In this document: positions 14,860 through 36,119 of the stretch, one piece after another | Numbering within the stretch: position 1 is the stretch's first letter | Layout: each line of letters begins with the position of its first letter | NCBI GenBank assembly: GCA_009746045.1 | Contig: RPFO01000059.1 | Location: 2,650,068-2,714,067, forward strand | Source: Mesostigma viride | Taxonomy: Eukaryota > Streptophyta > Mesostigmatophyceae > Mesostigmatales > Mesostigmataceae | Direction: 5' to 3' | Length of the DNA: 64,000 nt | Translations under genes and position numbers: made by a program | Notes under the pieces: model-generated | The model's database searches: none | What the model saw: only the letters and a program-made list of their open reading frames with translations | What the model was told of the DNA's origin: nothing

Positions 14860-16000
14860 TGTCACGGACGCGCGCTATGTCATCCGGGCGCCCACTATGC
14901 ACAAGACCGGTGACGTGCGCAAGGAATTTGTCTTCTACGCATTTTCGACAAAGGCTAGTGACCGGGGGGGGACACTAGCACTTGCAGCATAAGAGCGGAC
15001 GAAAGTGTACGTGCACGCGCGCCGGGCCAGGCACAGCTGGGCGCGCAGCACTGACTTGAGCGGACGGCAGCACAAGTGTGCAGCGTCGAGAGGATCATAC
15101 GCGTGTTAGTGGACAGCTGGAGCTGAAGCTGGACTGCTGGACTTCAACAGCGCCGAGGCTATTGACAGGCCAGGTGTCTTTGTGGTGTAGAATAGCGGGT
15201 CAACGTTATGAGGACTGGACAGAAAATGGAAAAGGACAATTTGCGGTGCGGAGCCAGATCGCTGGAATGAATGCGAAATCGCTGGCAGCCCTAAAAAGGG
15301 ATTTCTTCTAGAAAGGAACGATTAGACGCAATGTTTGCTGGGCCACTCACACGCAAGGTGTGAGCGTGCAGATTGTCTGAAGGATATTATGCTTCGACCT
15401 TGCTGGACGTGACTCAATGTCGGACATTCCCAGGGACAGAAATGCCGGAGCCTCTAGGAGATGAGATCGGCAACAGGGTAGCAATTTAGATTTGTCGGGA
15501 TGCCTTCCTGCTTTTGTTGGCATGTGTGGTAGAAAGCCAGGACGGCAACTGGAATGCGGTTTCTATTCGCATGGTTCAGGCAGCAAGATAGTTTTGGCAT
15601 TCCTGGCTGGACTGACAAGTGTGGCGTGTGTCATGCGTGTGGCATGACGAATGGTTTGGTTCATAGTCGAAGAGGACTCTCACGCAGCGTGTAGTCTCTT
15701 CGAGTCTCTCGTTAGTGGCCTTCGTGTTTCTCCCTTTCCTTGGGAGCAAGGCCGGTAGCATGTCATGGAGCGCTGCCTAACTGCGGGCTCGTGAGCATGG
15801 AGTGCATCGATATTGAGACTATCAACGTGTTGTAATTGTATTAACTTTCTCAATAAACTCCGCATGTGCGGCTTCATCATCAGACTGTGCAAAGTATGTG
15901 TTTTGAAAGCATTATTCTATAGCAGGGGAGGCAATAAGGTGGTTATCAGGCACGAGGGACAGTTCCTTGTCCTCGGCTGAGAGCCCTCCTTTCTTTACTC
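14860..16000 (+). repeat. GyD terminal repeat A1
   Basis: 1,141 bp, repeated almost exactly as A2. It contains a 77-residue open frame (15078-15311) that is identical in A2, probably chance. It ends TTTCTTTACTC, after which the element diverges from A2. Confidence 0.9.
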
Positions 16001-16322
16001 GAAGAGACTACCCGGTAGTCTGCTTCCTTCTGTTCGAAGCCAAGACGTTGGCTTTAGTGTTTAGCAACCATCAGCAGTACAGGGAACGGCCTGGCTGACA
16101 GTTTGTAAAGGAAGTGTCTTGAGACAGATTTTAAGAAAATAGAACTAGCCAGAATTTGCTGGCTCTTGTCTTTTTCTGGCAGGCTAGTCGAGTCGTTATC
16201 CTTGACACCTGTTATAAAGCCTTTGGTTGTTGCTTCTTCTCAGCGAAACCTAGGCTTGTTGGTTCTTGTTTTGCCCATCGGTCAGCTGGTGCATGCCACT
16301 GACGCGAGCGCAGACTCGAGCC
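16001..16322 (+). other. GyD 5' untranslated leader
   Basis: Lies between repeat A1 and the preferred gag start. No clear tRNA primer-binding site (TGG...) is seen directly after A1. A short inverted repeat (GACTACCCGGTAGTC) lies at about 16007-16021. Confidence 0.5.
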
Positions 16323-18101
16323 ATGGCAGATGCAAATAGAGCAGATGCCGACACGTCCGCTCCGGGGTCGAATGGCGGGATTCCTCCCGCCGTACCCGCA
16401 GTGGGTGAGAGTCGCGACCAAGAAGCGCCGCTGAGTATGGTGGCGCTGTTCGCGCAGATGCAAGCGCAGATGCAGCAACAGTCGCAACAGTTGCAGCAGC
16501 AATTGGCGCTGCAGATGCGGGAAGTGACCGACAGATTGGTGGCCGTAGAGGGTCGTCATCTGCAGTCCACACCATGGGACGGGCAGGCATCGATGCCGGG
16601 CCCCAGTGGTGTTGCCGCGGAGCCGAGGGAGCGGGACCAGCCGCCAACCTCAGGTAATGCGGCGGGAAGGGCTTCGATGGAACCGGGGGTTTTGGCTGGG
16701 TCGCTAACCCAACACGACTTGCTTGGTGAGGCGGATGGTCAGCCACGGGGCGAGTATACGCTGGCGCCCAGGCGCCTGCCTTTCGATCAAGCGCGAGACG
16801 GATTGCACGAGGAGAACGGGGCAGGGCTGGCGCGCGCGATGGACCCACACAGGGGTGCACCAGGACGCATGCTGCCAGGCGGGGCCTCAATTCCGTTTGG
16901 GCGAGGCGGTGGGGCGCTGACCGGCGGGTCGACTGCACGGTGGTCAAGTGTGCCAATCGGGCGCATTCCGCCCATGGAGGACATAACCACGCCGCTGGCT
17001 TTCCGAGTACGGGAGGCAGCACGACCAAGCACGCTGGCGCAGGGACGCGCAGCTCAGCGACCGCCGGAGGATGCCGATGGGGTGCAGTACCCGCAAAGGG
17101 TGCGCCTCATACCGGAAGGCGCGAAGATGCCCACCCTACCACGGGTGGACATGCGCGAGAAGTTCTCCACAACCGGCAATCTGGCCACGCTGGCGCAGGC
17201 CTACAACGCGTACAAGTCATGGATTGATCTGCAATACATGACTACGCAAGGCGCTGTAATGCATGAGTTTGTGATGAACAACATGCATTTTTTCTTTCAC
17301 GGCCTTACGCTGAGGCGAGTGGCTAGGCTGGTGGAGCAGTGGAGAGAGGTCTCGCTGTACACGCGTCACACGGACGTGTGGTTCGGCTTCGACGGGCGTG
17401 GCCAGCCCGACTATGACAACATCATGTATGGTGTCGACCCTGCCGAGGAACTGTGGGGCCTCCTTCGCCAGGAATACCCGGTGGAGACCATCAAGGCAGA
17501 GCGTGAGTGGCGCAGTTTCAAGATAGCCGAGGGTGAAACCCCGGAGCAATCTTACGAGCGCCTCATGGAGTTCGCCGGCGAAGTGGAGGACTGGTCCGAA
17601 AAGCTGGCGTGTCAGAAATGGCTGCAAGCGCTAGGCTCCAAGGAGATGGAGCTGCCCACGCCGCCCAACGGCCAGCCGTGGCGATTGCGGTCACTGTGCA
17701 TTGAGGTCAGGGCCATGATGCGACGACACGCGCAAGGCCGGATCTCGGTAAGCACGGTGGTGGCCGAGCTGCAGGCCAAGGTCGACGCGCTGACCAAGGC
17801 CAAGTCGGGTGAGTCGTCTGCCACAAGACAAGCGCGCCCGCAAGGCGGCCACGGTGCTAGCAGGAACCAAGGGGGGTCTCGCAACGCCTCATCGCATGAT
17901 GCAACCCAGGGTAACGCCGCTGGCGGCAACAAAGACGCTGCCGCCCCGACGCGAGCTGGGGGGGCACGTCCTCACAGACGGGTACTAGGACGGATGCGCG
18001 CAAATCGGGCTGCTTCCTTTGCGACAAGGATGGGCACCTTAGTCGCGAGTGTCCAAGCCGCTGCACGAAGCCGCATGGGGCAGACACGAAGTGGCACCTG
18101 A
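16323..18101 (+). CDS. GyD Gag
   Basis: Structural protein that should package element RNA. The ATG at 16323 sits in GCCATGG; an earlier in-frame ATG at 16266 adds 19 residues. The N-terminal part has a Gln-rich coiled coil (MQQQSQQLQQQLALQMREV). A retrotransposon-gag-like capsid region lies at about residues 270-500. The CCHC knuckle CFLCDKDGHLSREC is coded at 18011-18052 in the pol frame, not the gag frame. Switching at the G7 run 17958-17964 would join them. The printed stop (TGA at 18099-18101) overlaps the next ATG by one base. It is either a frameshift site or an indel. Confidence 0.8.
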   Translation: MADANRADADTSAPGSNGGIPPAVPAVGESRDQEAPLSMVALFAQMQAQMQQQSQQLQQQLALQMREVTDRLVAVEGRHLQSTPWDGQASMPGPSGVAAEPRERDQPPTSGNAAGRASMEPGVLAGSLTQHDLLGEADGQPRGEYTLAPRRLPFDQARDGLHEENGAGLARAMDPHRGAPGRMLPGGASIPFGRGGGALTGGSTARWSSVPIGRIPPMEDITTPLAFRVREAARPSTLAQGRAAQRPPEDADGVQYPQRVRLIPEGAKMPTLPRVDMREKFSTTGNLATLAQAYNAYKSWIDLQYMTTQGAVMHEFVMNNMHFFFHGLTLRRVARLVEQWREVSLYTRHTDVWFGFDGRGQPDYDNIMYGVDPAEELWGLLRQEYPVETIKAEREWRSFKIAEGETPEQSYERLMEFAGEVEDWSEKLACQKWLQALGSKEMELPTPPNGQPWRLRSLCIEVRAMMRRHAQGRISVSTVVAELQAKVDALTKAKSGESSATRQARPQGGHGASRNQGGSRNASSHDATQGNAAGGNKDAAAPTRAGGARPHRRVLGRMRANRAASFATRMGTLVASVQAAARSRMGQTRSGT

Positions 18102-21100
18102 TGAACAAGTGTCCAGCCGCGGGCATCAAGACGGTCCACTTCGCCGAGATGGCGGGCAAGACCGACTCGATGGAAGCCCAGGTGGCTGCCATCAAGCATG
18201 GTGAGGAGGCGACGGCGCCCCCCAACCAATTCGAGACGGTGTACCGGGAGGACCCATTCTGGGCGCCCATGCCGGGTGACGTCGAGATCAACGCTGCGGA
18301 GGCTACCAAAGGCAAGCAGGCACGCAGCCCGCTTTCTTTTCAGCAGGCACCCATGTTGCCTGCCGGGCAGTTGCCCGCGTCCTTTTCCATGCCGCTGGCT
18401 GGGGTGCAATCTGCTTTTGAGCATGCGAACCCTGCTGGGCTGGAGCAGCGTAGGCGATTGGCGCCTGTGTACCCAATGCCGTTCATTGTGGACGTACCCA
18501 TGTTTTCAGCACGGCAGGTGGTCGACACCTTCGGGCAGAAGGGGGTTGAGTGGCTGGGGTCGGTTGTGTCCGAGATCCAGTTGTTCGCAGATGGGCATGA
18601 TGTGCGCACCTTGCGCAATTCTGAGTCCGTCACCTACGGGCGCCAGCCGGTAGAAGCCGCAGTGCCCGTGGTGCAAGCGGGAGTGGTCAGCACAAGTAGC
18701 CAGCAGCGCACTAGTGCAGTCCCCCAGGTTCCCACGGTGGTTCCATACCCCAATGGTGAGCCGTCCATGGCGTTCCAAGCAGTTGGAGCCTGTGGAGATG
18801 TATGGAGCGACATGGTGACATGTCCGTTGGTTGGCGCAGTCAAGCTTGATAGCGGTGCTCAGCCGCTAGTCATCAGCACGGACTTGGCCACCATGCTGAA
18901 CCTGACCTACGAGAACGGTGGCTTAGTGGAAAGCCCCGTGTCTGTGTCAGGTTGGCAGGGTCCGGCTAGTAAGCCGTACGCTATGACGGCGGTTAAAGTC
19001 AACGTGATTTTCAATCCGTTGCGCGCCTCTAGCATGACCACCGTGTCCGCGTATGCGCTGGTGGTCAACAAGTGTGGATATTCCGCACTACTCGGGGTGG
19101 ATGTCCTTGCTCGCGCCATGGTTCAGGTGGACTATAGGGCGGAGGAGGCATCTTACATCCCTGATTGGGATGGGGCTGGCCTGAAGCGGGCCAGCGTGCC
19201 GGTCTCATGCTTCAGTTCTTCAGCCGGGGCTGCACGCCTCAACCCTTCCGCGGCTGCGGGCGTGGTGGAGGTCAGCATGGTGGAGGTACGGGCGGCGGGC
19301 TCATCGGCGTGGGACAAGCATCGGACGGTGCTGCCCCAGCCAACGGCGAGCATTGCCAAGATGCGCACGCAGTGGTCGCTGGATGCTGTGACGTCCACGC
19401 GGCAGCTGGCTATGCGCAAGCGGGTAACTGAAGCCGTCATCACCATTCCTCAGATGGCCAGCCATGGCCTCACTTTGCTGCAACCGGGTGTCTCGGAGGC
19501 CCAAGGTAATTTTTCTGCTGCAATCTTACCGCAGGCCCCTGATTTTGCCAAGGGTGCGGTAGTGTTGGAACTGTTTGCGGGGATCGGAGGGGGCATTGCA
19601 GGCTTTTTGGCCGCAGGCGGCGTGTGCCGTAAACTCATCGCGGTAGAGCCATCGCACAAGGCGCGTCAGGTGTACTTCAGTCACTGTGGCGTGTTGTCGC
19701 GAGAGTATCCCGCGCAGTTTCCGCCATCAGCATGGCGTGACCCGTTTGGGGAATGTCCTCAAGATATCCGAGCCATCGGTGAGGTGCAGGTGCAGCAGTT
19801 GTTGCGCAGGCATCATGCCATCGACTTGGTAATTGCGGGTTGGGAGTGCCAGGGCCTGAGCCAGGCAGGGCAAGGGCGGGGGCTAGCCGATCCGCGTAGC
19901 GCGCTGTTCTGGGAACTGTTGCGTGTGGTGGGACTGTTGCAGTCGCGTCAGCCCCATCCGCCTGCGTATCTGTTTGAGAACGTTGTGGCGGGTGACAGCC
20001 CACATCAGGCGGTGCGGGAGGACTGGGCTACAATCGTGGCACTCCTGGGGGAGCCCATCGTGTGTGACAACGCAGGGCTGGGTGGGCTCACGCATCGTTT
20101 GCGTGCCTATTGGACCAACGTGGCGTGTGCGACCGATGTGCAGGCGGTCTTGGGGGCCGTAGCAAGGCAGCATCCGAGTGTGTCTGCGGAGGTAGCATTG
20201 CCTTCCCACCTAGTCACGCAGAAGGTGGATAGCGAGGATCGCCCACCGTATGCACGCGTCAACCGGGTCGGGAGCCCCATGTGTGCACTGCCGACCCTGG
20301 TCAGTTACCAAGGGTCGACAGCATACCGTGATCGGGGTAAGGGTCTCGTTTGGGACACTACCACCGGTCTGTTGGTGCAGCCACCCGCAGAATTTCGTGA
20401 GGCCAGCATGGGTTTTCATGTCGGGGCCTCGGCGCTGCCGGGCGTGCTCGAGAGTGAGCGCTGGTCTTTGATAGGCCAGGCTATGTCGGTGTTGCAGGTC
20501 GGGTATGTGCTGCTTGCATCGGTTGCCGTGCGCCAGTCTGGGGGGGCGTCCCCAGCCAATCCGCCTCAGCAGGTTGAGGCGCGCGCAGCCAAACTGAAGC
20601 GCCCTGCAGCGACGGGGACTTCATCAGCATGGGGGTGGCGTCTGCGACAGGTGTGGACTATCATTCTCATGACCGCCCTGCTGACCAGCACCGTGCTGGC
20701 CGGCGAGCCCACGCTGCATCGGGTAATACACCGTGCGGCACGCGAGGCTCCGGCGGTGGGTGTCACACCAGGCGTGGCAGCCTTTTCCTTGTTCCACGAC
20801 GATGCGGCTAGGGCGCCGCATCTTGAGGCACATGCGGTAGCTGTGGGTGATCCCGCGGATACGCACCCCTGGGCTATTGGCGAACACCTTTCTGATGCGC
20901 AGCGCTCAGCCATGCTAAAGTGGCTAGGCACTGCAAGGGGGGCCTTCGCTTTCACAAGTGATGAACTGGGGTGTTTCAATGGTGGGACCATGCGTGTTCC
21001 ATTGGACACTGACACCCCTTTGTTCCGACGCCAGCATCGCCTGAGTCAGGCCGAGTTGGATTTTGTAGCCGAGCAATGCAAGGAGTTAGAGGATGCCGGT

Positions 21101-21502
21101 ATCATCAGGCAATCTTCCTCCAGCTATGCCGCTGCCGTTGTCGTTGCGCCCAAGAAGGACGCTATCACCGGGGCATGGACGGGTATGCGCATGGCCACCG
21201 ATCTGCGGTTGCTGAATGCACACACACCCGTGGACCGTTACCCCATGCCACGTGTGGATGATGTCCTGGATAAGATATCTCCTCATGTGAAGTTTGTGTC
21301 CTCGCTGGACCTGCGTAGCGGCTTTCATCAGATCGCAGTTGCGCCGGAGGATCAGCGGAAGCTTGCATTCTGGGGGGGGGCAATTTGTATGAGTGGGTGC
21401 GCATGCCCTTTGGGCACCGCAACGCTAGTGCTGTTTTCCAACGAGCTATGGACAAAGTGCTTGCAGGTCTTCCTTTCGCCGCTTGTTACATTGATGATGT
21501 AA
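18101..21502 (+). CDS. GyD Pol part 1: protease, cytosine-5 DNA methyltransferase, RT N-terminus
   Basis: Residue numbers count from ATG 18101. Retropepsin active site LDSGAQ at D250, with ALLGVDVL as its flap-end partner. Residues about 487-805 form a C5-methyltransferase: motif I ELFAGIGGG (F492), motif IV GWECQGLS with catalytic Cys583 (Glu replaces the usual Pro), motif VI FENV (E626), motif VIII THRLRAYWTN (R666, R668) and motif X IGQAMSV (G792). The YWTN ending of motif VIII is reminiscent of Dnmt3/DRM-type enzymes. A hydrophobic stretch (VWTIILMTALLTSTVLA) follows. RT begins near residue 940 (MATDLRLLN; SSLDLRSGFHQ). The frame is broken at the G9 run 21372-21380, and RT continues in the next entry. 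Confidence 0.88.
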   Translation: MNKCPAAGIKTVHFAEMAGKTDSMEAQVAAIKHGEEATAPPNQFETVYREDPFWAPMPGDVEINAAEATKGKQARSPLSFQQAPMLPAGQLPASFSMPLAGVQSAFEHANPAGLEQRRRLAPVYPMPFIVDVPMFSARQVVDTFGQKGVEWLGSVVSEIQLFADGHDVRTLRNSESVTYGRQPVEAAVPVVQAGVVSTSSQQRTSAVPQVPTVVPYPNGEPSMAFQAVGACGDVWSDMVTCPLVGAVKLDSGAQPLVISTDLATMLNLTYENGGLVESPVSVSGWQGPASKPYAMTAVKVNVIFNPLRASSMTTVSAYALVVNKCGYSALLGVDVLARAMVQVDYRAEEASYIPDWDGAGLKRASVPVSCFSSSAGAARLNPSAAAGVVEVSMVEVRAAGSSAWDKHRTVLPQPTASIAKMRTQWSLDAVTSTRQLAMRKRVTEAVITIPQMASHGLTLLQPGVSEAQGNFSAAILPQAPDFAKGAVVLELFAGIGGGIAGFLAAGGVCRKLIAVEPSHKARQVYFSHCGVLSREYPAQFPPSAWRDPFGECPQDIRAIGEVQVQQLLRRHHAIDLVIAGWECQGLSQAGQGRGLADPRSALFWELLRVVGLLQSRQPHPPAYLFENVVAGDSPHQAVREDWATIVALLGEPIVCDNAGLGGLTHRLRAYWTNVACATDVQAVLGAVARQHPSVSAEVALPSHLVTQKVDSEDRPPYARVNRVGSPMCALPTLVSYQGSTAYRDRGKGLVWDTTTGLLVQPPAEFREASMGFHVGASALPGVLESERWSLIGQAMSVLQVGYVLLASVAVRQSGGASPANPPQQVEARAAKLKRPAATGTSSAWGWRLRQVWTIILMTALLTSTVLAGEPTLHRVIHRAAREAPAVGVTPGVAAFSLFHDDAARAPHLEAHAVAVGDPADTHPWAIGEHLSDAQRSAMLKWLGTARGAFAFTSDELGCFNGGTMRVPLDTDTPLFRRQHRLSQAELDFVAEQCKELEDAGIIRQSSSSYAAAVVVAPKKDAITGAWTGMRMATDLRLLNAHTPVDRYPMPRVDDVLDKISPHVKFVSSLDLRSGFHQIAVAPEDQRKLAFWGGAICMSGCACPLGTATLVLFSNELWTKCLQVFLSPLVTLMM

Positions 21503-24138
21503 TCGTCTTTAGCGCGACATTTGAGGAGCACCTGGCGCACTTGGAGCAGGTTCGCTTGGCTCTCGAGGAGCATAATATGCGGCTGCACCCTGAGAAGTGC
21601 AAGTTCGCCCAGCGGACCCTCTCATTCCTTGGTCATCAGATTGTGCCGGGTGGCCGGACGCCTGATGCCGCCAAGGTCGAATCCATTGTGCAGGCCGCCG
21701 TACCCACGGATGTCTCAGGGGTGCGGGCGTATTTGGGTTTGGCTGGCTATTACCGAGGTTACATTGAGAACTTCAGCAGCAAGGTGAAGCCCTTGACCGA
21801 GTTACTCAAGAAGGGGTGCGTGTGGGCGTGGGGTCCCGCACAGCAACGCGCCATCGAGACAATCAAGCAGGAGCTCACGTCGGCCCCGATTCTGCGCGCC
21901 CCTGACTATGCTTTGCCGTTTGTGTTATATACCGACTGGTCCAAGGTAGGACTGGGTGCGGTCTTGGCGCAAAAGGATGGTGATGGGCGCGAGCACGTTA
22001 TTGCTTATGCTAGTCGCAGCAACAACCCAGCGGAGAGCCGGTATTCTTCCTATGAGGGGGAGGCACTGGCTGTGGTGTGGGCCATCAAGCACTTTCGCCC
22101 GTATTTAGTTGGGCGCGTGTTTACTCTGGTGACAGACCACCAGCCGCTTCAGTGGCTAATGACCAACACCAACCTGACGGGTAAGCTCGCCCGATGGGCC
22201 ATGATTATCCAGGAGTACCACATGACCATTGTGCATCGGGCCGGCAAGGACCATGTCAACGCCGATGTGCTATCCCGATACGCCATGCCTACCACTGTTG
22301 ACCACACTGGAGCCCGGGCCATGGGTGCCGAGGGCTCGTCGGGTTCTGTGGTCTTTGTGAACGCTGCTGGGTATGCGGCCGACGATGAGGAGGAGGCGTG
22401 GTGGCGCAGTGTCGAGTACTCTGTGGCGGACTTCGGCATCAGCGACGACCCGGTGCGGCCGTCGCCATTCACGCCATCCAAAGCTGTGTGCGCTATGGAA
22501 GAGGGTAGGTCTCTGTCCTTTGACATTGATCCTTCTCTGCAGCAGCTGATCGCTGTGCAGGCTCTCTTAGCGCGTAGCTCTCTTGCTGATTGCTACACCG
22601 CTGATATCTGGCTAGATGGTCGAGTTTTGGAGCAAGTGCAGGGTGCTGTCTTGACTCCTACTCCAGTCGATTGGACTCCTGCTCAGAAGGCGACGGAGTT
22701 GAACAGGGTGCAGCACAGGGCTGCAACCTATGGTTGGGAAGATGGGGTTTTGTACAAGCTGTTGGGCAAGCGTAGGGTGGTCGTCCCACCGCCTGACAAG
22801 CGCGTTGCTATAGTGCAGGCGTACCACGAGCGGTATGGTCACTTGGGTGGCAATCGCACGCTCAGCCTCGTACGGACCAGCTATTGGTGGAATAACATGC
22901 GACACACAGTGGCCCAGGTAGTGGCCAGCTGTGTCCCGTGTGCTCGAACCAAGGCTAACTTTAGCGCAGATCATGGTGCCAAGGAGCTGATGTCGCTTCC
23001 CATCAAGGGCTTGTTTTATCGCTGGCACGTCGATCTGTGCGGGCCGTTTCAGGAGAGCCCTGACGGCAACCTCTATGTCATGGTATGCGTGGAGAGCTTT
23101 AGCAAATGGGTTGAGTTGATCCCCATTGCTGACAAGCATGCCGCTACCACAGCGAAGCATTTTGCAGACATCATCACCAGGTTTGGGGCTCCCGCGGAGG
23201 TAGTCACGGACCAGGGTGGTGAGTTCAGGGGTGAGTTCCAGGAGTTGCTGGATGGATGTCTTATTGATCACCGTCGCACTTCTCGGGAGCATCCTCAGGC
23301 CAATGGTTTGGCTGAGAGATTGGTGCAGACCGTCAAGCAGGCGCTGCGCAAGTGGAGCCTGCAGGTGCCGGAGTCGGCCAGGTGGGATCGCGAGTTGGCA
23401 TGGATTGCCATGGGTTATCGCATGTCTCCCCAGGAGTCTCTCGCTACCTTCTCCCCGTATTTCCTTCTGTTCGGGCGTAATCCTCTTTTGCCTACGGAGG
23501 CACAGGTTGCGCACCCCGAACCCATGGCCTTCGACAACGCTCAGCAATTTTTGGTTGAGGTGCTGGCCAGGGCAGAGACTTTTAAGAAGGTCATGCCCAT
23601 CGCGATGAACAACTTGTTCATTGCTCAGCACAGGGACTCCCTGCGTTACGCTCAGCGCCGGGGGGGCGCATACATGGCTCGCCAGCTGCGGTTTAGGCCA
23701 GGGCAGTATGTTTTCCTGCGCACTCAGCTGAAGCACACTTTGGATGTGGAGGCGGGGCCCACCATTTTGCGCATTGTGGCTATCAAACCATCGGGAGTGG
23801 CAATTTTGGAGGGCGCCGACGGGAGCCGTACGACAGACAACCTCAGCAATCTCAGTCCCTGCTCACTGCCCAATTTGGTCCACGACCTCCAACCGCACAC
23901 ATCTCGCCGAGTCAAGGACGCCCAGTGTCAGGTTTGTCACCGGGTCGATCAGGCGGAGTCCATGTTATTGTGTGATCAGTGTAACTGTGGTTGGCACATG
24001 CAGTGCTTGCAGCCCGTGGTCACCAGCATTCCGGAGGGGGATTGGTTTTGTCCAGTGTGCACCGCTGCGCAGTTTACCTCCCGCAGCTTGACTGCGGTCA
24101 CCGCTGCCCTTGTCTTGGTACGATCGCTGTCTTCGTGA
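21385..24138 (+). CDS. GyD Pol part 2: RT, RNase H, integrase, PHD finger
   Basis: Continues RT after the G-run slip: NLYEWVRMPFG, then catalytic YIDD at 21488. RNase H has YTDWSKVGLGAVLAQ and SSYEGEALAVVWA. Integrase has the HHCC finger (YHERYGHLGG...CVPC) and DDE residues in WHVDLCGPF, VVTDQGGEF and GLAERLVQTVK. The C-terminus (about 23926-24066) is a PHD finger: CQVC...LLCDQCNCGWHMQC...WFCPVC, which fits the C4HC3 spacing. PHD fingers read histone-tail marks, so this one may replace the chromodomain for targeting. It ends just before a GAGGGGGGGAA purine tract. Confidence 0.9.
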   Translation: MYEWVRMPFGHRNASAVFQRAMDKVLAGLPFAACYIDDVIVFSATFEEHLAHLEQVRLALEEHNMRLHPEKCKFAQRTLSFLGHQIVPGGRTPDAAKVESIVQAAVPTDVSGVRAYLGLAGYYRGYIENFSSKVKPLTELLKKGCVWAWGPAQQRAIETIKQELTSAPILRAPDYALPFVLYTDWSKVGLGAVLAQKDGDGREHVIAYASRSNNPAESRYSSYEGEALAVVWAIKHFRPYLVGRVFTLVTDHQPLQWLMTNTNLTGKLARWAMIIQEYHMTIVHRAGKDHVNADVLSRYAMPTTVDHTGARAMGAEGSSGSVVFVNAAGYAADDEEEAWWRSVEYSVADFGISDDPVRPSPFTPSKAVCAMEEGRSLSFDIDPSLQQLIAVQALLARSSLADCYTADIWLDGRVLEQVQGAVLTPTPVDWTPAQKATELNRVQHRAATYGWEDGVLYKLLGKRRVVVPPPDKRVAIVQAYHERYGHLGGNRTLSLVRTSYWWNNMRHTVAQVVASCVPCARTKANFSADHGAKELMSLPIKGLFYRWHVDLCGPFQESPDGNLYVMVCVESFSKWVELIPIADKHAATTAKHFADIITRFGAPAEVVTDQGGEFRGEFQELLDGCLIDHRRTSREHPQANGLAERLVQTVKQALRKWSLQVPESARWDRELAWIAMGYRMSPQESLATFSPYFLLFGRNPLLPTEAQVAHPEPMAFDNAQQFLVEVLARAETFKKVMPIAMNNLFIAQHRDSLRYAQRRGGAYMARQLRFRPGQYVFLRTQLKHTLDVEAGPTILRIVAIKPSGVAILEGADGSRTTDNLSNLSPCSLPNLVHDLQPHTSRRVKDAQCQVCHRVDQAESMLLCDQCNCGWHMQCLQPVVTSIPEGDWFCPVCTAAQFTSRSLTAVTAALVLVRSLSS

Positions 24139-24154
24139 TGGGGCCGGTCGCCAG

Positions 24155-24168
24155 CGAGGGGGGGAATC
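24155..24168 (+). promoter_or_regulatory. polypurine tract of GyD
   Basis: GCGAGGGGGGGAAT lies directly before B1. In LTR elements the plus-strand primer abuts the 3' LTR, so this marks B1 rather than A2 as the functional LTR start. Confidence 0.65.
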
Positions 24169-24307
24169 ATGGGACAGGTCCTCGCCCACCCCACAGGGCA
24201 TGCAGTTAAGGCAGGCACATCAGCTCAGCTCATTTGGGTTTTACCAAATTAAGCTGAGTGGCCAGCCGCCATGGTGGCGCCGGAGATTGTGGCACGCAGA
24301 CGCGACA
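24169..24307 (+). repeat. GyD repeat B1
   Basis: 139 bp, identical by eye to B2 (32924-33062). It holds a hairpin at 24224-24258 (CTCAGCTCATTTGG pairing with CCAAATTAAGCTGAG). It is joined to A2 through GACAGCTGTC, a perfect palindrome. Confidence 0.88.
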
Positions 24308-24309
24308 GC

Positions 24310-25144
24310 TGTCACGGACGCGCGCTATGTCATCCGGGCGCCCACTATGCACAAGACCGGTGACGTGCGCAAGGAATTTGTCTTCTACGCATTTTCGACA
24401 AAGGCTAGTGACCGGGGGGGACACTAGCACTTGCAGCATAAGAGCGGACGAAAGTGTACGTGCACGCGCGCCGGGCCAGGCACAGCTGGGCGCGCAGCAC
24501 TGACTTGAGCGGACGGCAGCACAAGTGTGCAGCGTCGAGAGGATCATACGCGTGTTAGTGGACAGCTGGAGCTGAAGCTGGACTGCTGGACTTCAACAGC
24601 GCCGAGGCTATTGACAGGCCAGGTGTCTTTGTGGTGTAGAATAGCGGGTCAACGTTATGAGGACTGGACAGAAAATGGAAAAGGACAATTTGCGGTGCGG
24701 AGCCAGATCGCTGGAATGAATGCGAAATCGCTGGCAGCCCTAAAAAGGGATTTCTTCTAGAAAGGAACGATTAGACGCAATGTTTGCTGGGCCACTCACA
24801 CGCAAGGTGTGAGCGTGCAGATTGTCTGAAGGATATTATGCTTCGACCTTGCTGGACGTGACTCAATGTCGGACATTCCCAGGGACAGAAATGCCGGAGC
24901 CTCTAGGAGATGAGATCGGCAACAGGGTAGCAATTTAGATTTGTCGGGATGCCTTCCTGCTTTTGTTGGCATGTGTGGTAGAAAGCCAGGACGGCAACTG
25001 GAATGCGGTTTCTATTCGCATGGTTCAGGCAGCAAGATAGTTTTGGCATTCCTGGCTGGACTGACAAGTGTGGCGTGTGTCATGCGTGTGGCATGACGAA
25101 TGGTTTGGTTCATAGCCGAAGAGGACTCTCACGCAGCGTGTAGT
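24310..25144 (+). repeat. GyD repeat A2, left part (interrupted by CoA)
   Basis: Matches A1 from its first base. It is cut at GTAGT (25140-25144) by the CoA element and resumes at 32619. Confidence 0.9.
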
Positions 25145-25772
25145 AGTTAACGAAACTGTGGCTGAACTGTGGTTCAGCCTGCACTGATTAATATCTACAG
25201 AGGAAGTAGTTATATTAATCAATAGGTTTACGTTGCTGGTTATGGCTACCAGCACAGAACGCACAAGGCACGTGAGAATCGTCGCCGAAGGTGCGAGGAC
25301 ACAGGTGCAGGGAAAGTGGTGCTACCAAGTGGCAGCGTCCTGCTCGTTATATACTAATTGTGACGCAGTCACATCCAGATGACTGATAGGACAGATCATC
25401 TCACAATATTGCTGTCCTTCACTCTGGACCAGCAGATCTCGACTCGTTATCCATAAATAGTCACATCAGTGTCCTGTCGCACAAGTCCTGTCACTATTTG
25501 TTACGTCTAATCAATAGCATTGAATAGACCGCAGTGTCGGAGACTAAATGTCCTATCGTACACTGTGACAAGACGTCGTATGCCACGCGTCACTTGAAGA
25601 ACCACCGTAGAATCACTGAATCCAAGTAGAATGTAGTAGAACAGTATCTTGCTCACATCTCGAGCAATACTCATCAGAATGAACCCGTTTCTGGATTGTA
25701 GTAACCGGAAGTAGAATCTCTACAAGCCAAGTAGCTTAGTAGAATAATATTGCTTGCCAGGCAATATTAACT
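25145..25772 (-). repeat. CoA 3' LTR
   Basis: Begins AGTTAACGAAACTG and ends GGCAATATTAACT on the plus strand. Its last bases and the adjoining purine tract are duplicated about 50 bp further right (ATATTAACTCCAGCCC at about 25763 and again at about 25813). Confidence 0.9.
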
Positions 25773-26548
25773 CCAGCCCTTTCTTCTCTTTTAGAGCTTG
25801 GACATAACAGCCATATTAACTCCAGCCCTTTCTTTCTTTTAGAGCTGTTAGGCTTGGCAACACATATATAGAAACAACATGCATAGCACTTGACATCCCT
25901 CCCAGCTCTCTGTAGTCTCTGCTCGGGATTAATCAAGCACCAGATCACAACACATCTCAGCCATGACGAATTACAATGAATTCCCTATCCACTGGAAGTA
26001 GAAAGCCAAGTGTTTGGAGTAGCAGCTTGTGGCTAACCAGAATAATGACCAAAATGGAATCACCACCATAATGGCTCCTGATTGGAACCCCACAAGTTAC
26101 CCACAAGACCTTATCAGGTAGACATTGATAGTTATCAGAACTGGCGCCCACCATGGACTGAGAAATAGCACATCACAAAATATATTAAGCACATGACAAA
26201 CTACCTTCCTCTGTCTGGGACAAAACTAGGGGGACCTGTCGCCACCTCACCAGCAAGGTTGATGGGTCAGCCAATCCGGGAAAATCCGCCTAAGCAGCCC
26301 CAGGGAATCGAACCCTGCCCTATAAAATCCCTTTGGTTGAGACAAACCTCAAACTGAGGACAAACCCCCAACCAACATCATGCTCCATGACTGAGCATTA
26401 CATAGAATACAGTATTATACACATATGTACACAGAGCATTACTGCCCTCAGAGCAACACAGCTCTCAGCATAACAGAGCCCAGCTCTATGTTAGCTCTTC
26501 TCACCCAATCAGTCATCAAGCTCAAAGCTCCAACTGGAATTGCTCAAC
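25773..26548 (-). other. CoA 3' UTR and polypurine tract
   Basis: The purine tract AAAAGAGAAGAAAGGGCTGG (minus) abuts the 3' LTR and confirms orientation. The block at 26220-26330 is shared with CoB, including ACCTGTCGCCACCTCACCAGC and a tRNA T-arm-like CAGGG-TTCGATT-CCCTG. No gene seen. Confidence 0.7.
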
Positions 26549-29500
26549 TCACACAGAGGAGCTCATCAGCTTGTAAAGAAGCTTATATTGCTCAGCAGAC
26601 TTGTGAGGCAACTTGGTCAAGGCATCAGCAGGATTCTCAGAACCTGGAAGATGTTGAATATCCACCAGACCTGCCAACTCCTTCAACAGGAGATAATCCA
26701 GATCTCTGCTTCTGGCCAACTGCTTGTGCACAAACTGGACCATACCCATGTTATCTGAAAGGATCAAGGTTTCCAGCTGAAGAGTATGAGGAGTCACTGA
26801 AGCCATAGCTAGCAACAGCTCCTTGATGTACAAACTAGACTGAATCCCTTCACAAATGGCTCTGCACTCAGAGACATCTGAACTCACAGCAACCCTTCTT
26901 TGAAGACGACTGTACCAGGCCACAAGACTAGGCCTATGTTGCTGAAGCACAAACAAGCCAGCTGACCTGCCTCTGACCTTAGAAACTTGCCTGCTATCCA
27001 TGGAGCTATCAACATAGATATCCAAGGAAAATGGCAAAGACAAATCTATCCCAGCTAAAGTAATACCAGGAGACTTGTTAACATGTGCAATAATCTGGGA
27101 AGGCTCCTCCAGAATTAGCACATCATCAGGGGATCTGCTATGGACCATCATGTCAGGCCCACAAATGCTGCCATACCAGGCCAACTTGCCTTTCAGCTCA
27201 GGTGCAATGGATGACGTCATGACCTCTGGAACAGATTGAAGAATGGTACTCTTGTAGTCATTGCCCGCCTGCAGCTTAATCAGCCACTGACTCCCCTCCT
27301 GAACCAATGTAGCCTGCATTCCACAGAACGTGACAGCCTCTCCAGGCTTCTGCCACAATTCTTTTCCCAAAGGAAATGCATCATTAATGATGGGCACAAA
27401 CTGACTCAACCACTTAGTGGGAGCAATCAAGTGCAAGTCATCACCATGCAGGCTAGCATACACAGGTAAATCATGCCACCTACCCAGCAATAAACATGGG
27501 TCCACAGATGACACCTTCAACCCACAGTGTTTAGTCAAGAAGTCTTCCAAGGTGAGCCTCCAAATGATGGGACTGGACCTGAGACCTTCTAGACCCTTCA
27601 GAATCAGCAGGTAGCTAGACTGGAGCTCTGCCTGCCAGGCTACAGGAACTGGCACATGAAATGGAGTTTCACAATGCCACACCTGCTGAGCCACACTGGG
27701 ATCACCCTTCAGAAATGCTCTCTTGAAATCTAGCAGAACTGAAGACACATCAGCACCCTGGTTCAGCATACCGACATACAGGCACAATAAAATACGCCAT
27801 GTATCATGTAGCATCCCAGGTGTATACAACTCCTCGCCCAGAAGATCCCCAGTACCACGGTATTCATTAAGAACTGGACGCACATGGGGAACAGACACCC
27901 CCTCCACCTCCTTCCGCTTGATGACGAATCTGAGCTTCAACCGTGTACTGTATGGAGGAACTTCATTCACAGGCTGACAGCAGTCAAACTGCAACCACTC
28001 CTCTAGGGCCTTGGCAAATGCTAGCCTCCAGGCCTCAAACATCAGAGGAGAACTCATTTCCTGGACAAGCTGATCATAGCTAAGAGGAGAATGAGCAGCC
28101 AGTGATCTCTTAGTAATACCAATACTGCTAGGATGAAGAGCAGCTGGCATCACAAGACTGGAAGCCACAGGAATCTGATCCTCAGGCCACTGCACATTCC
28201 TGATCGCTTTCACAGAGAAAAAATTAAGATTCAGGGCCCTGAAGTTAGTCAGTGGAATGCTACCCCAACCCTTACGAATAAGGCTATGAGATACAACCAC
28301 AACTCCAGGGGTGCAAAGAAAATTCTGACCCAAAATGATAGGGCCATCGTAATCTTCTAGCACTAGGAAGGAAACATCTACACCCATAAATGGTAAGATG
28401 ATTTCTCCTACCACTTTCATATGAACCCTGCCACTAAAGTCAGACACCCAGGAACAGCTAGACTCGCCAATCTGCCGCTGCCCTGTATGCTGAGACCCCA
28501 TGATTGAGACCTCTGCATTGGTATCTACTTCTAGTGCAGTGCACTCGGACTCCCCCAACTGGCTGAGCTTGGACACCCGAGGCTTTTGCTTGGCTTTTTG
28601 CATAGCCAGCACCACATCTTTCAGGCCCACACCTCTATGCTTAGTGAGGCTAGAGGGGACCACATCTGCCTGCTCTAAATCTGGAAAGTTAACCGGTCCA
28701 GGGGTCTGGCCAGGACTTACCCGGGGATTACTTCCAGCCGGAACGTGATGATCAGGGATGACGTCATGACCAACTGGCAAGGTTGTCACATCAGGAGTTA
28801 CTGCCTCTGCTTCAGCACCCCTTAGACGTACATATGACCACGACAGACGGTGCACATTCTGGGGAGGATCCTCCATCTTCACCCAGCACTTGTGCCCAGC
28901 TAGTTCCACCCTGGTCACTACTCCAGGGTGCCAGCTACCACGCTTGCCTGCAAGCTTGGGCTCTTTCCACACAATTACCCTCTGGCCAACAACAGGTTTC
29001 AGAACACTCCAGCCCTTGTCTTTCTGCCTCAACTTGGCAAACTTGAACATAAGGCTATCTTTCCAGGCTTGCTCAACCTCAGTAGGGAGCTCCCGAAGAT
29101 GCAATGATAATGGAGTCACAGGGACCTCTCCAACATACATGGGTGCCCTGACATTCAATCTGTCCTCAACTGACCTTAACCAGGCCGTCTTGATAATAGC
29201 TGGAACCAATCTTGGAATCTTCTTCTCCGTCAGCAGAATAGTCTTGAGCTCTCTGATTGTCCTCTCCACCACGCCTTGACTGCCATGGGACTCCCTGTGT
29301 ACAACAAATAACTCAGGGAGGTCTTCATGCCCCATGCAGCACTCAAATTCTAAATCACACTGCAGCTGGATCACTGGTTTCATTCTGGATCTGATAGCCT
29401 GGAGCCCAGCCACCAAACATGGCTTAGATTTGTCTTGCAACAGCTCCAGCACCTTGTACTTGGTGTATCTGTCAACACCCACCAACAAAATCAGTTTCCT

Positions 29501-30121
29501 GATTTCTTGGATATCACATTGTACATATCCAGGCTGCAACACAGGTTGTCTGACATGAGACTTCTTAGGCTTGGGAGCAACCAGCCTACAGGAACAAGCC
29601 TCAGCAACCTGCTTTACTGCATTAAACAAAGATGTCCCTCCCAGCCTCCTTGCAAACTGGAGTGCCTGGGCAGCATGACCAAACATATGATGCAATCTCA
29701 ATGCAATGTTTGACACAAGAGACATTTTATTAAATACAGGTGAGGTGCTTGGAACAGCACTCTCTCTTACAACCAAGCTCCCCATTGCATCATTCAGGCC
29801 ATCAGCCTCATCCTCCTCCTCTAAAGGAGCTTCCTGCCCTAAGGCAGGACTTCCACGCTCCAACATTGAAGGAGTACGCAAACTACCTCCAAGAGCCATG
29901 TGGGAACGTTGTTGCCTTGTGGTAACTGCTTTCACCATGGTGACGTGGGAAGACCCAGTCACTACCCCATTGTGTTCTTCCTCCATGGATGCACCCTCAA
30001 CCTGTGCAGGGGGACTCTCAACCTTAAGCGGGAGACTCTCAACCTGTGCAGGGAGCAAATCAACTTCATCCAGAGTAATGGGGGGGTCACTCTTAGCCCC
30101 CTCCCTGGCGGACCCTAGCAA
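26549..30121 (-). CDS. CoA Pol: integrase, protease-like, RT, RNase H
   Basis: About 1,190 residues. There is no ATG near the beginning, so expression likely uses frameshifting from the zinc-knuckle frame (7-nt overlap). Integrase: HHCC-like finger (LHHMFGHAAQ...CSC), catalytic residues in VQCDIQEI, LQCDLEFEC and VVERTIREL. An SH3-like tail follows (VGQRVIVWKEP...GSWHPGVVTRV). Next is a retropepsin-like segment, VDTNAEVSIMG...PIILGQNFL, with DTN in place of DTG. RT: LLDFKRAFLKGD and LHGDDLHLIAP (GDD). RNase H: IYVDSSMDSRQ, SSDVSECRAIC and LSDNMGMVQ. Copia-type RT/RNase H is clear; the protease lies after integrase, which is not the usual Copia order. Confidence 0.88.
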   Translation of the reverse strand: MLGSAREGAKSDPPITLDEVDLLPAQVESLPLKVESPPAQVEGASMEEEHNGVVTGSSHVTMVKAVTTRQQRSHMALGGSLRTPSMLERGSPALGQEAPLEEEDEADGLNDAMGSLVVRESAVPSTSPVFNKMSLVSNIALRLHHMFGHAAQALQFARRLGGTSLFNAVKQVAEACSCRLVAPKPKKSHVRQPVLQPGYVQCDIQEIRKLILLVGVDRYTKYKVLELLQDKSKPCLVAGLQAIRSRMKPVIQLQCDLEFECCMGHEDLPELFVVHRESHGSQGVVERTIRELKTILLTEKKIPRLVPAIIKTAWLRSVEDRLNVRAPMYVGEVPVTPLSLHLRELPTEVEQAWKDSLMFKFAKLRQKDKGWSVLKPVVGQRVIVWKEPKLAGKRGSWHPGVVTRVELAGHKCWVKMEDPPQNVHRLSWSYVRLRGAEAEAVTPDVTTLPVGHDVIPDHHVPAGSNPRVSPGQTPGPVNFPDLEQADVVPSSLTKHRGVGLKDVVLAMQKAKQKPRVSKLSQLGESECTALEVDTNAEVSIMGSQHTGQRQIGESSCSWVSDFSGRVHMKVVGEIILPFMGVDVSFLVLEDYDGPIILGQNFLCTPGVVVVSHSLIRKGWGSIPLTNFRALNLNFFSVKAIRNVQWPEDQIPVASSLVMPAALHPSSIGITKRSLAAHSPLSYDQLVQEMSSPLMFEAWRLAFAKALEEWLQFDCCQPVNEVPPYSTRLKLRFVIKRKEVEGVSVPHVRPVLNEYRGTGDLLGEELYTPGMLHDTWRILLCLYVGMLNQGADVSSVLLDFKRAFLKGDPSVAQQVWHCETPFHVPVPVAWQAELQSSYLLILKGLEGLRSSPIIWRLTLEDFLTKHCGLKVSSVDPCLLLGRWHDLPVYASLHGDDLHLIAPTKWLSQFVPIINDAFPLGKELWQKPGEAVTFCGMQATLVQEGSQWLIKLQAGNDYKSTILQSVPEVMTSSIAPELKGKLAWYGSICGPDMMVHSRSPDDVLILEEPSQIIAHVNKSPGITLAGIDLSLPFSLDIYVDSSMDSRQVSKVRGRSAGLFVLQQHRPSLVAWYSRLQRRVAVSSDVSECRAICEGIQSSLYIKELLLAMASVTPHTLQLETLILSDNMGMVQFVHKQLARSRDLDYLLLKELAGLVDIQHLPGSENPADALTKLPHKSAEQYKLLYKLMSSSV

Positions 30122-30438
30122 GCCCAGGGAAGGCTGAGCCTGTCAGGTTGGGTTGTTATACCCCCTTGGCCCCTTTGCTTACGCCAGCTAGGGCAGTCCT
30201 TACGGATGTGGCCCTGCTGGTGACAGAAATAACATGTGATACGAGGTGTCCCCACCCCAGGTGGTCCCCGCTGGGACCCCACCCTGTTGAAATCAAATCT
30301 GGGACGCTGAGCCGCTGGCTGCTCCTGGGAAGGACCTCCACGACGCTTGAAGCCACTGAAGCCCTTGGCCTGGAAGCCCCCCGCTTGGAAGGCCCTGACC
30401 TTGGTGGACCATAACCGTTGGAGGGCTGCCCCCCCCAT
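30115..30438 (-). CDS. CoA nucleocapsid frame with CCHC zinc knuckle
   Basis: About 107 residues containing CYFCHQQGHIRKDC. It is in a different frame from the capsid part of gag and starts at a G8 run (minus, 30429-30436). It is probably the C-terminal end of Gag joined by slippage or separated by an indel. It stops at TAG, overlapping the start of the pol frame. Confidence 0.7.
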   Translation of the reverse strand: MGGAALQRLWSTKVRAFQAGGFQAKGFSGFKRRGGPSQEQPAAQRPRFDFNRVGSQRGPPGVGTPRITCYFCHQQGHIRKDCPSWRKQRGQGGITTQPDRLSLPWAC

Positions 30439-31214
30439 TGGTTGCCCTTGACCTTGGGAACACTGCCCCCTGCTGCAGCTGCCACATCCACCTTATCCTT
30501 CTCCTTCTGCTTCTCCCTGGCCTTGTCTGCCTCCTTCTTGCCTCCCACATACTTGCCCCTGAAATAATCCTTGATCTTGGCCACCATAGCAGCCCAGGTG
30601 GTGCATGTACGCATGTGCACCTGCAGGTTATCCAAGGTGACCTCATCCAATCCCAGGCTACCTAGGAAATCATCCATGGCAATCTCATCTGACACTACAT
30701 ACCCCTTGCCAGCACAATTGTGCCTGAGCTCCTGAAAATCCTCAAATGCCTGCAGAATCAGACCCTCAGCCTTGAAATCAATGTACTCCTTCTTCCAAAA
30801 GGAGCCATCACTAGCCCTCTTATCATCTAGGAACACCTCAAACTCAGCTATAAAAACATCCCAGGAATCTCCATCCTCAAACTTGTCATTTACATACTTC
30901 TGCACCCTCTTGGGACACTTAAGAAGGTACTGTGACATACACAGCACCTGCAGAGGATTGTTACCATTATACAAGCCCTTATATCCCTTAAGGTGCCTAA
31001 TGGTAATATCCTTATCCTTAACAGTCCAGTGCTCCTTGAGACTGGGAAGCTGGTTAAGAATAGCAAAGCCCTCCTGGGCCTTGGCTCTGCGGGGCTGCTC
31101 TGCTGCTGCTGGACGATTAAAATTCTGATTAAAATTCTGACCCCGCAGCATTTGTTCGCCGCGTATCTCGCCGTCTTCCAAACCCTGCATGGTCGCTGCG
31201 AATGCCGATGACAA
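30437..31214 (-). CDS. CoA Gag capsid region
   Basis: Starts MSSAFAATMQGLEDGEIRGE. The frame stays open to 30156, but the meaningful part ends at the G8 run, where the zinc-knuckle frame takes over. It contains segments shared with CoB gag (VFLDDKRASDGS...KKEYIDFK; VHMRTCTTWAAM; GKYVGGKK). These support a capsid-like Gag even though no standard domain is obvious to me. Confidence 0.75.
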
Positions 31215-31340
31215 CTGTCGATGCCGATGCCGATGCTGAAGAAAGAATACTGCTGGGGAATTAATAAATTAATCCCTTAAGCTCTGGAACCAAGAAAAAA
31301 ATTTTCCTGAATTAATTCTCTGTTAATTATAACAGAAAAT

Positions 31341-31937
31341 TTAATCCAGCCGCATATCGTCGCGCGGAAACTGCAATACGTTATCCAAAATCTGCTGCAC
31401 AATACTCGGATATAAATCAGGAAGCCCCTCGCTGTTTTCACCTGGCTCCTCAGCGTTTGATTGCCGCTGAATCGAAGCAGCGACGTTTATGATACCGTCG
31501 ACTGACGACGCCCACCCGTTGTTGCTAACCGGAACTGCGACAGCCGGAAGAGTCGCCGAAATTCCAGACCACGCTGTCGCCAACGCCAGAACACCCAAGC
31601 CGTAGGTGCGAAGCGCCGAAATTACTTGAGCTTGCTCGTCTGATCCCGAAGCTGCAAGCCTTCGGAAAATATGGGAATTTTCCGACAGGATTTCCAAATC
31701 TTGAGTAAGGTCGTCGACGAACTGATGCAGATCGTTAGAAACTGGCGGCCGGCTGACGAGCGCTTGAGACAGCGAAGGTTGAACAGCACGCGAATGCAGC
31801 GCAGCAGTTGACGCCGTACGTTGAACGTTGAAATTAAAACCTGAAGACGATGGAGCCGACGCACGCTCGGGAGATGGCTCACGATATTCACGCGTGTTTC
31901 CCATATAATGGAAAAACACCGTAAAAATTGCCGACAC
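31341..31937 (-). CDS. CoA ORF-1, small protein upstream of gag
   Basis: 198 residues (or fewer, from the internal MGNTREYREP start) between the 5' LTR and gag. It is Ser/Pro-rich at first, then helical, with DLHQFVDDLTQDLEIL. CoB has an equivalent ORF with FVQFVDDQVEDWERIL at the same place, so it is a conserved accessory frame. I do not recognise the family. Confidence 0.55.
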   Translation of the reverse strand: MSAIFTVFFHYMGNTREYREPSPERASAPSSSGFNFNVQRTASTAALHSRAVQPSLSQALVSRPPVSNDLHQFVDDLTQDLEILSENSHIFRRLAASGSDEQAQVISALRTYGLGVLALATAWSGISATLPAVAVPVSNNGWASSVDGIINVAASIQRQSNAEEPGENSEGLPDLYPSIVQQILDNVLQFPRDDMRLD

Positions 31938-31985
31938 CAGAAATCAATGCCGTAATCAGTAGATTACGAACTCGCTTGTAATTCG

Positions 31986-32613
31986 AGTTAACGAAACTGT
32001 GGCTGAACTGTGGTTCAGCCTGCACTGATTAATATCTACAGAGGAAGTAGTTATATTAATCAATAGGTTTACGTTGCTGGTTATGGCTACCAGCACAGAA
32101 CGCACGAGGCACGTGAGAACCGTCGCCGAAGGTGCGAGGACACAGGTGCAGGGAAAGTGGTGCTACCAAGTGGCAGCGTCCTGCTCGTTATATACTAATT
32201 GTGACGCAGTCACATCCAGATGACTGATAGGACAGATCATCTCACAATATTGCTGTCCTTCACTCTGGACCAGCAGATCTCGACTCGTTATCCATAAATA
32301 GTCACATCAGTGTCCTGTCGCACAAGTCCTGTCACTATTTGTTACGTCTAATCAATAGCATTGAATAGACCGCAGTGTCGGAGACTAAATGTCCTATCGT
32401 ACACTGTGACAAGACGTCGTATGCCACGCGTCACTTGAAGAACCACCGTAGAATCACTGAATCCAAGTAGAATGTAGTAGAACAGTATCTTGCTCACATC
32501 TCGAGCAATACTCATCAGAATGAACCCGTTTCTGGATTGTAGTAACCGGAAGTAGAATCTCTACAAGCCAAGTAGCTTAGTAGAATAATATTGCTTGCCA
32601 GGCAATATTAACT
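31986..32613 (-). repeat. CoA 5' LTR
   Basis: Near-identical to 25145-25772. The element sequence just inside (minus) reads CGAATTACAAGCGAG; it resembles the CoB equivalent but is not a usual TGG-type primer site. Confidence 0.9.
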
Positions 32614-32618
32614 GTAGT

Positions 32619-32923
32619 CTCTTCGAGTCTCTCGTTAGTGGCCTTCGTGTTTCTCCCTTTCCTTGGGAGCAAGGCCGGTAGCATGTCATGGAGCGCTGCC
32701 TAACTGCGGGCTCGTGAGCATGGAGTGCATCGATATTGAGACTATCAACGTGTTGTAATTGTATAAACTTTCTCAATAAACTCCGCATGTGCGGCTTCAT
32801 CATCAGACTGTGCAAAGTATGTGTTTTGAAAGCATTATTCTATAGCAGGGGAGGCAATAAGGTGGTTATCAGGCACGAGGGACAGATCCTTGTCCTCGGC
32901 TGAGAGCCCTCCTTTCTTTACTC
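32619..32923 (+). repeat. GyD repeat A2, right part
   Basis: Resumes the A repeat with CTCTTCGAGTCTC after the GTAGT duplication and ends TTTACTC, where it joins B2 directly. Confidence 0.9.
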
Positions 32924-33062
32924 ATGGGACAGGTCCTCGCCCACCCCACAGGGCATGCAGTTAAGGCAGGCACATCAGCTCAGCTCATTTGGGTTTTACC
33001 AAATTAAGCTGAGTGGCCAGCCGCCATGGTGGCGCCGGAGATTGTGGCACGCAGACGCGACA
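32924..33062 (+). repeat. GyD repeat B2 (right end of element)
   Basis: Second copy of the 139-bp B sequence, ending GACGCGACA next to the TGTA target duplication. Confidence 0.9.
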
Positions 33063-35413: not shown

Positions 35414-36119
35414 AGTTAACGTTCCTAGCACACGCAATGTGAAGGATATTTGAAGGATATGGTTGCAATGCAGCAATGTGTGAATATGGTTGGAAACGGA
35501 GCTTTGTTAAAATTGGATAATGTTACAGCGCTCACACACTTGAGGCTTGTACACGCGCTTGCCAAGTCAAGGCACAACACGTGAGGCGGGCTCGCAAGAG
35601 ATCTTCAATTGGCACTAGCCTATTGTTTATATACTTGTGCACTGTGCTTGCTAGTCCTGAGCAGCCTAGAAGGCATGCTCAGTAATAACACCCCCGGTAC
35701 AGTATTCACTACCTGTACAGCGCCCAGTTCCTATACAGTAGGTCTGCCATACAGGCACAGTGACCACAGAGCGCAGTCCACAGTGACTATTGCATCTGCA
35801 CCTAGAAGTCCAGGACTAAGCCTGCGGTACCAACAGACCACAGGTTAAGGTTCCTATTTCCTGCGTACGACGTATTAATCCAATACCGTCGTAGGTACAG
35901 CACCTAATTCCTGTCAGCCCAGGAATTACTGTCGACCCCATATGCGTCGGCAAATATTCACGTCCGACTTAGAAGAACAGCCGGCTCGCGCTCGCGCGCG
36001 ACCGGGAAGTCGGAACGCCATAACTTTCTTGATACTTGTCGGAATGAACTCGTTCCGGTGCCGCTGGAATCGCAGAGATATGCCGAATCAGGATCACGCC
36101 AATGCGCTTGGCGTTAACT
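35414..36119 (-). repeat. CoB 3' LTR
   Basis: Has an extra TTGAAGGATAT near 35450 compared with the 5' LTR. The purine tract AAGAAAAGAAAGGATTGG (minus) abuts it at 36120-36137. Confidence 0.9.

Follow-up and report, generated by a model that had tools for sequence, protein, structure and literature searches.

What does a retrotransposon do with a DNA methyltransferase and a histone-reading finger of its own, and how does it enter the genome if its two ends are not one pair of identical repeats? Both questions are raised by GyD, an element at positions 14860-33062 of the 64,000-nucleotide stretch of Mesostigma viride DNA analysed here (the window; contig RPFO01000059.1, positions 2,650,068 to 2,714,067). 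GyD is a single insertion, itself interrupted, and its pol encodes, in order, a CCHC knuckle, a retropepsin, a C5-methyltransferase (MTase), a reverse transcriptase (RT), an RNase H, an H2C2/DDE integrase and a PHD finger. We think it probable that GyD is a self-primed, circle-integrating element of Gypsy type, whose MTase methylates the element's own DNA and whose PHD finger tethers the integrase.

The coding part follows the Ty3/Gypsy order of protease, RT, RNase H and integrase with a DDE integrase, and the gag and pol open reading frames (ORFs) gave no Pfam match to a tyrosine recombinase at 0.01. The gag-like ORF (16254-18101) lies in a different frame from pol, and in the window copy a frame break inside the RT splits pol itself (overlap 21319-21502), a break which other copies do not have. 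A preliminary description of this DNA had called a Gypsy-type pol with an integral MTase and a C-terminal PHD finger, which the domain matches bear out, and the C5-methyltransferase motifs which it saw in order are indeed arranged as I-IV-VI-VIII-IX-X. The enzyme is complete, lies between protease and RT, and has DNMT3 as its closest profile and fold, with a motif IV that reads Glu-Cys and not the Pro-Cys expected of DNMT3.

Searches of the M. viride assembly (439.9 Mb, 2243 contigs) found this arrangement many times over. With a 346-residue MTase query, all 117 scored places (from 518 candidates) matched every residue, with identity printed as 100%, and many of them lay within an open frame of 2074 amino acids (aa). 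A 45-nt MTase probe, allowing up to two mismatches, found 98 + 98 = 196 genome sites and an RT probe 101 + 98 = 199. Among the first 100 RT sites listed, the MTase lay at most 1700 nt upstream, the distance expected, in 85, and 3.2-26.6 kb away in seven, which are probably interrupted copies; eight had none within 30 kb. Conversely, eight of the first 100 MTase sites listed were without an RT site, and two of these are explained: C1515:103445 lies past the last RT site listed, and at C1:8922253 an insertion interrupts the stretch probed in RT. The preliminary description had named copies without the MTase, or an assembly join, as findings that would speak against it; a join is ruled out by the copy number and the MTase-RT spacing, and a subfamily without the MTase was considered and rejected, the remaining unpaired sites being taken for truncated or interrupted copies. 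When ten copies were set against the window over 3.6-4 kb, the differences were confined to a handful of bases or short indels. GyD is young, with ~200 near-identical copies.

GyD is not alone in this genome. A sister family, GyD2, has an MTase 65% identical to that of GyD, and of 20 places fetched for its profile class, 19 were GyD2-like (64-65% to the window, one partial). A further locus (L010, C1107:2828300-2838299) carries a left part 97% identical to GyD joined to an MTase with only 73% identity, a third MTase type, and we therefore conclude that the families recombine. Between GyD and GyD2 there are few amino-acid changes although synonymous sites are saturated; GyD pol has long included the DNMT3-like MTase and the PHD finger. 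Two EukProt proteins labelled Mesvir1 belong here: P0013 matches GyD2 at 99% over its length, while P0019 shares 92-93% with it over the first 243 residues and 78% over the MTase portion, in which the model leaves some sequence out. The host is accordingly the streptophyte M. viride, and not the probable chlorophyte of the preliminary description. A protein labelled Prorocentrum lima, a dinoflagellate (P0025), shares 98.6% identity with GyD pol across 144 aa, for which contamination of the sample is likelier than transfer.

The ends of GyD depart from this Gypsy pattern (Table 1). Instead of one identical pair of long terminal repeats (LTRs) at its very ends, the element has the split direct repeats of DIRS/PAT-like elements, in the plan A-coding-B-GC-A-B, so that the right end is B and not A; the ordinary LTR element first supposed was not borne out. 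Both the plan and the 2-bp spacer recur in another GyD copy, on C1468, and in a GyD2 copy, on C2100, where A measures 1127 bp and B 136 bp. Outside A-start and B-end stand 4-bp duplications: TGTA in the window, TAGT on C1468 and CTTG in GyD2. They were also found in nine of the ten readable among 12 further left-right pairs, five by script and four on reading by eye, the script's word having been too strict for them (of the other pairs, L068 is partly masked and unlike, L063 is masked and the left end of L066 lies outside the stretch), which brings the total to 12 insertions. Ty3/Gypsy elements make target-site duplications of 4-6 bp, which these fit, whereas DIRS/PAT-like elements make none. 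It is highly improbable that the extra repeat arose by chance in an otherwise ordinary LTR Gypsy element, or that the arrangement is an artefact of assembly: the pol order of GyD, apart from the passengers, is plain Gypsy, in keeping with the former, but the A-coding-B-A-B plan recurs in two families, the duplications flank it in 12 insertions, and there are ~200 copies.

Table 1 Features of GyD and the element nested in it (window coordinates).
Feature	Position	Strand	Evidence or remark
Target-site duplication TGTA, left	14856..14859	.	identical 4 bp at 33063-33066
Repeat A, copy 1, 1141 bp, starts TGTC	14860..16000	+	99.8% identity to 24310-25144, 99.4% to 32613-32923
15-nt stretch within A, putative mRNA start and self-primer	15691..15705	+	complementary to putative primer site
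Putative primer-binding site, A/internal border	15997..16011	+	complementarity to 15691..15705
Gag-like ORF, 615 aa stop to stop	16254..18101	+	without Pfam match at 0.01
Pol frame 1, 1195 aa: CCHC knuckle, protease, MTase, RT start	17915..21502	+	-1 relative to gag-like ORF
Retropepsin motif KLDSGAQPLVISTD	18842..18883	+	
DNMT3-like C5-methyltransferase domain	19517..20536	+	PF00145; family profile to DNMT3A 71 bits; structure comparison
Pol frame 2, 939 aa: RT remainder (YIDD), RNase H, H2C2 and DDE integrase, PHD	21319..24138	+	
C4HC3 PHD finger, integrase C-terminus	23926..24060	+	PF00628 E 4e-9; nearest solved chains BAZ2B/BAZ2A PHD
Putative polypurine tract GAGGGGGGG, immediately 5' of B1	24156..24164	+	
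Repeat B, copy 1, 141 bp, ends GACA	24167..24307	+	100% identity to 32922-33062
2-bp spacer GC, B1/A2	24308..24309	+	B|A junction GACAGCTGTC palindromic
Repeat A, copy 2, first part	24310..25144	+	
Foreign nested element, not GyD	25145..32612	-	628-bp LTRs (25145-25772, 31986-32613); Copia-like gene order by eye
Repeat A, copy 2, second part	32613..32923	+	
Repeat B, copy 2, right end of element	32922..33062	+	
Target-site duplication TGTA, right	33063..33066	.	

Three further features of the repeats bear on how such an element might be copied. The border between A and the internal region is complementary over 15 nt to a place within A in both families, with letters that differ strongly between GyD and GyD2; swapping the families gave 7 nt, and random A repeats gave a mean of 7.2 and a maximum of 13 (2 x 2000), with none of 2000 reaching 14 nt. 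A G-rich tract lies immediately 5' of B in both families (a GA-G-tract in GyD2), and the B|A junction forms a palindrome of 10 bp in GyD and 16 bp in GyD2. From these we propose a cycle in which the mRNA would start inside A1, and its 5' end, annealed to the site that directly follows A1, would serve as primer for reverse transcription; the plus strand, begun at the G-tract before B, would then give a cDNA with the repeat B-GC-A at both ends, and joining of these ends would give a circle. The DDE integrase would cut the circle at a single palindromic B|GC|A site, with loss of the 2-bp spacer, and insert A-coding-B-A-B. Such a circle would account for where the A|B joint lies and for the TG..CA ends, as well as for the spacer and the palindromic junction. 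The MTase, made within Pol, may methylate CG on the new cDNA or the fresh insertion, which would make the insertion resemble CG-methylated host DNA, and the PHD finger may tether the integrase to nucleosomes with unmodified H3K4. M. viride has 5-methylcytosine, mostly at CG, and bisulfite data are published (GEO GSE123852, named in PMC6947507). The preliminary description had likewise supposed that the element may methylate its own or neighbouring DNA, and that it may choose a chromatin state.

Three observations should be set beside this proposal. Of 20 fetched copies, 12 had a readable A|B junction, with one and the same sequence throughout; the window departs from it at a single base, and C1468 carries ~90 bp extra at this point (of the other eight, L054 runs from A into internal sequence, L059 shows B1 and six had no element end where expected). 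Such a constant joint fits inheritance as well as precise ligation. The CpG content of GyD carries no signature of long methylation, in copies that are young. Finally, among the 101 relatives covering motif IV, 12 had none of motifs IV, VI and VIII by pattern: P0027 (Tetrabaena), P0050 (Haematococcus), P0060 (Pleodorina), P0069 (Volvox reticuliferus), P0075, P0079 (Chlamydomonas reinhardtii CHLRE_09g398141v5, motif-less by eye as well), P0082, P0091 (Astrephomene), P0096, P0107, P0122 and P0143. The last two points would suit an MTase domain that is retained in Pol for a structural or nucleic-acid-binding role and not for methylation. We consider this unlikely for GyD, as neither GyD nor GyD2 nor the third family has lost the catalytic Cys, the ENV or the HRxR residues, and a Cys fits the motif IV pattern in 87 of the 101 relatives (68 EC, 17 PC, 1 AC, 1 SC), to which SPCQ in P0017 and P0018, read by eye, adds two.

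The unusual motif IV also raises the question of substrate. DNMT2-type enzymes offer a precedent for RNA methylation, and the GyD enzyme could act on RNA, or in trans on the DNA of the host and of rival elements, affecting RNA stability or silencing competitors, instead of on its own DNA. For Symbiodinium, PMC5890265 discusses what hundreds of DNMT copies may do to the host methylome, and also that LINE-encoded DNMTs may methylate RNA. The GyD MTase is, however, closest to DNMT3, a DNA enzyme, and we judge such targets improbable. For retrotransposon DNMTs, the same paper reports de novo CG methylation and proposes methylation of cDNA, while the SymbioLINE enzyme produced no DNA methylation in a yeast test (PMC5890265).

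As to where the enzyme came from, the M. viride genome holds a DNMT1 gene, and this gene and the genome's MTase ORFs of 313-387 aa were tried as the source and rejected, those tested scoring only 14-29 bits against the element MTase profile; one fetched stretch (L076) did not match it. No host DNMT3 gene was identified in the genome, so that the GyD MTase may yet derive from the host. MTase ORFs of another type (GFPCQ) occur in dozens of places, mostly as open frames of 304-387 aa (L001-L008, L077-L080), with many equal scores on contigs of ~20-45 kb; these could be genes of an integrated virus or of some further mobile element.

Among solved chains, the GyD PHD finger has BAZ2B and BAZ2A as its nearest relatives, followed by Lid, CHD4, ATXR5 and WSTF. 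This set is rich in readers of unmodified H3K4, and we infer that the GyD finger binds the same mark.

A search with the GyD2 integrase plus PHD finger returned 331 proteins, and twelve rows among the best 120 name green algae: Tetrabaena, Haematococcus, C. reinhardtii, Pleodorina, V. reticuliferus, Astrephomene and the label Chrzof1, which we take to be Chromochloris. These PHD-tailed Gypsy elements of Chlorophyta (such as CHLRE_09g398141v5 of Chlamydomonas and QJQ45_013313 of Haematococcus) resemble GyD in integrase plus PHD at 46-51% identity across the 12 listed rows, and in ten they also have an MTase match. They differ in that the MTase, where the order is visible, lies between RNase H and integrase, and in that the catalytic motifs are gone in six of those ten. 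RT and integrase occurred together in 90 of the best 120, 65 of which matched the MTase profile. In a domain-order scan of 142 proteins (P0005-P0146), the order RT-RNase H-MTase-integrase-PHD was found in 62 and the window's order, MTase-RT-RNase H-integrase-PHD, in four.

The two positions track the RT/integrase tree (86 rows, FastTree, midpoint root): one side has 26 rows, five with the window's order and 21 without an MTase in the same ORF, and the other has 60 rows, 57 with the MTase after RNase H. One of the rows without an MTase (P0031) starts with an apparent MTase C-terminus, and in P0006 and P0010 gag, protease and MTase make up one protein; rows of the first side may on this account have their MTase in an upstream ORF. 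In the MTase tree (a short search, with a distant, partial outgroup) the RNase H-integrase position is separate on a starred branch. Both trees agree with two captures of an MTase, one between protease and RT (clade 1) and one between RNase H and integrase (clade 2), yet the GWECQ motif and the HRLRxxW context are common to both positions, which is easier to reconcile with one capture and a relocation, and we regard two captures as rather doubtful. Tentatively, and with the balance leaning slightly against so broad a statement, a large green-algal Gypsy clade might combine a DNMT3-like writer and a PHD reader in one Pol, with the writer moved or recaptured between two positions and its catalysis lost in several volvocine elements; in Mesostigma at least, the DDE integrase would open a self-primed cDNA circle at a palindrome within it, which would place this mode of integration between those of LTR and DIRS elements.

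Elsewhere in the window, the nested element and a second minus-strand LTR element at 35448-43536 share ~71-77% identity over parts of their length. By eye, the nested element's 1197-aa ORF looks Copia-like, yet it gave neither a Pfam match at 0.01 nor a PDB sequence match at E 1. A 9-base periodic repeat array runs from ~3270 on, inside overlapping open frames of both strands.

Several traits of GyD have counterparts among known systems. In self-priming LTR retrotransposons of the Tf1 type the mRNA 5' end is complementary to the primer site, and GyD would resemble them if its mRNA started, as proposed, at the 15-nt stretch that is complementary to the putative primer site in two families; its pairing sites are ~300 nt apart, and it adds split repeats, an MTase and a PHD finger. 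Chromoviruses carry a histone-reading domain at the same place, the integrase C-terminus, in their case a chromodomain and not a PHD finger. Among the closest systems is KnitGypsy-Dnmt3 of Klebsormidium nitens, also a streptophyte alga, for which PMC5890265 describes a Gypsy Pol ORF with a DNMT3-type domain, DIRS-like repeats with a Gypsy domain composition (legend to its Fig. 4) and purifying selection. As described there, KnitGypsy-Dnmt3 appears to differ from GyD in the PHD finger, a word absent from the main text of PMC5890265, and in the self-primer and circle logic, of which the sections on KnitGypsy-Dnmt3 make no mention. SymbioDIRS-Dnmt3 of Symbiodinium likewise has a DNMT3 in Pol and A-coding-B-A-B repeats, and occurs in two different domain orders, but has a tyrosine recombinase in place of the DDE integrase (PMC5890265). 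A 2025 paper (PMC12344493) also mentions retrotransposon DNMT3s in streptophytes and dinoflagellates; the streptophyte elements are there assigned to Copia, and in PMC5890265 to Gypsy.

No Klebsormidium name appears among the matches listed in the protein searches, which include the best 120 of 331 from the integrase-plus-PHD search, the main text of the Chlamydomonas genomes paper PMC8226300 mentions neither PHD nor methyltransferase, and searches of the open-licence literature gave no further report of PHD-bearing or MTase-bearing algal Gypsy elements. A DNMT3 in the Pol of a charophyte Gypsy element with DIRS-like repeats is not new (PMC5890265). What looks new is the pairing with a PHD finger, the green-algal clade in which the MTase takes two positions and is dead in some members, and the self-primer and palindrome logic. 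This suggests that MTase-bearing Gypsy elements are no oddity of Klebsormidium, but belong to a broad green-algal clade of streptophytes and chlorophytes in which a histone reader apparently travels with the methylation writer. Whether an element that methylates DNA benefits from doing so is testable in Mesostigma, with its ~200 near-identical copies and published bisulfite data, and the union of split-repeat ends with a DDE integrase bears on the links between DIRS-like and LTR-like life cycles.

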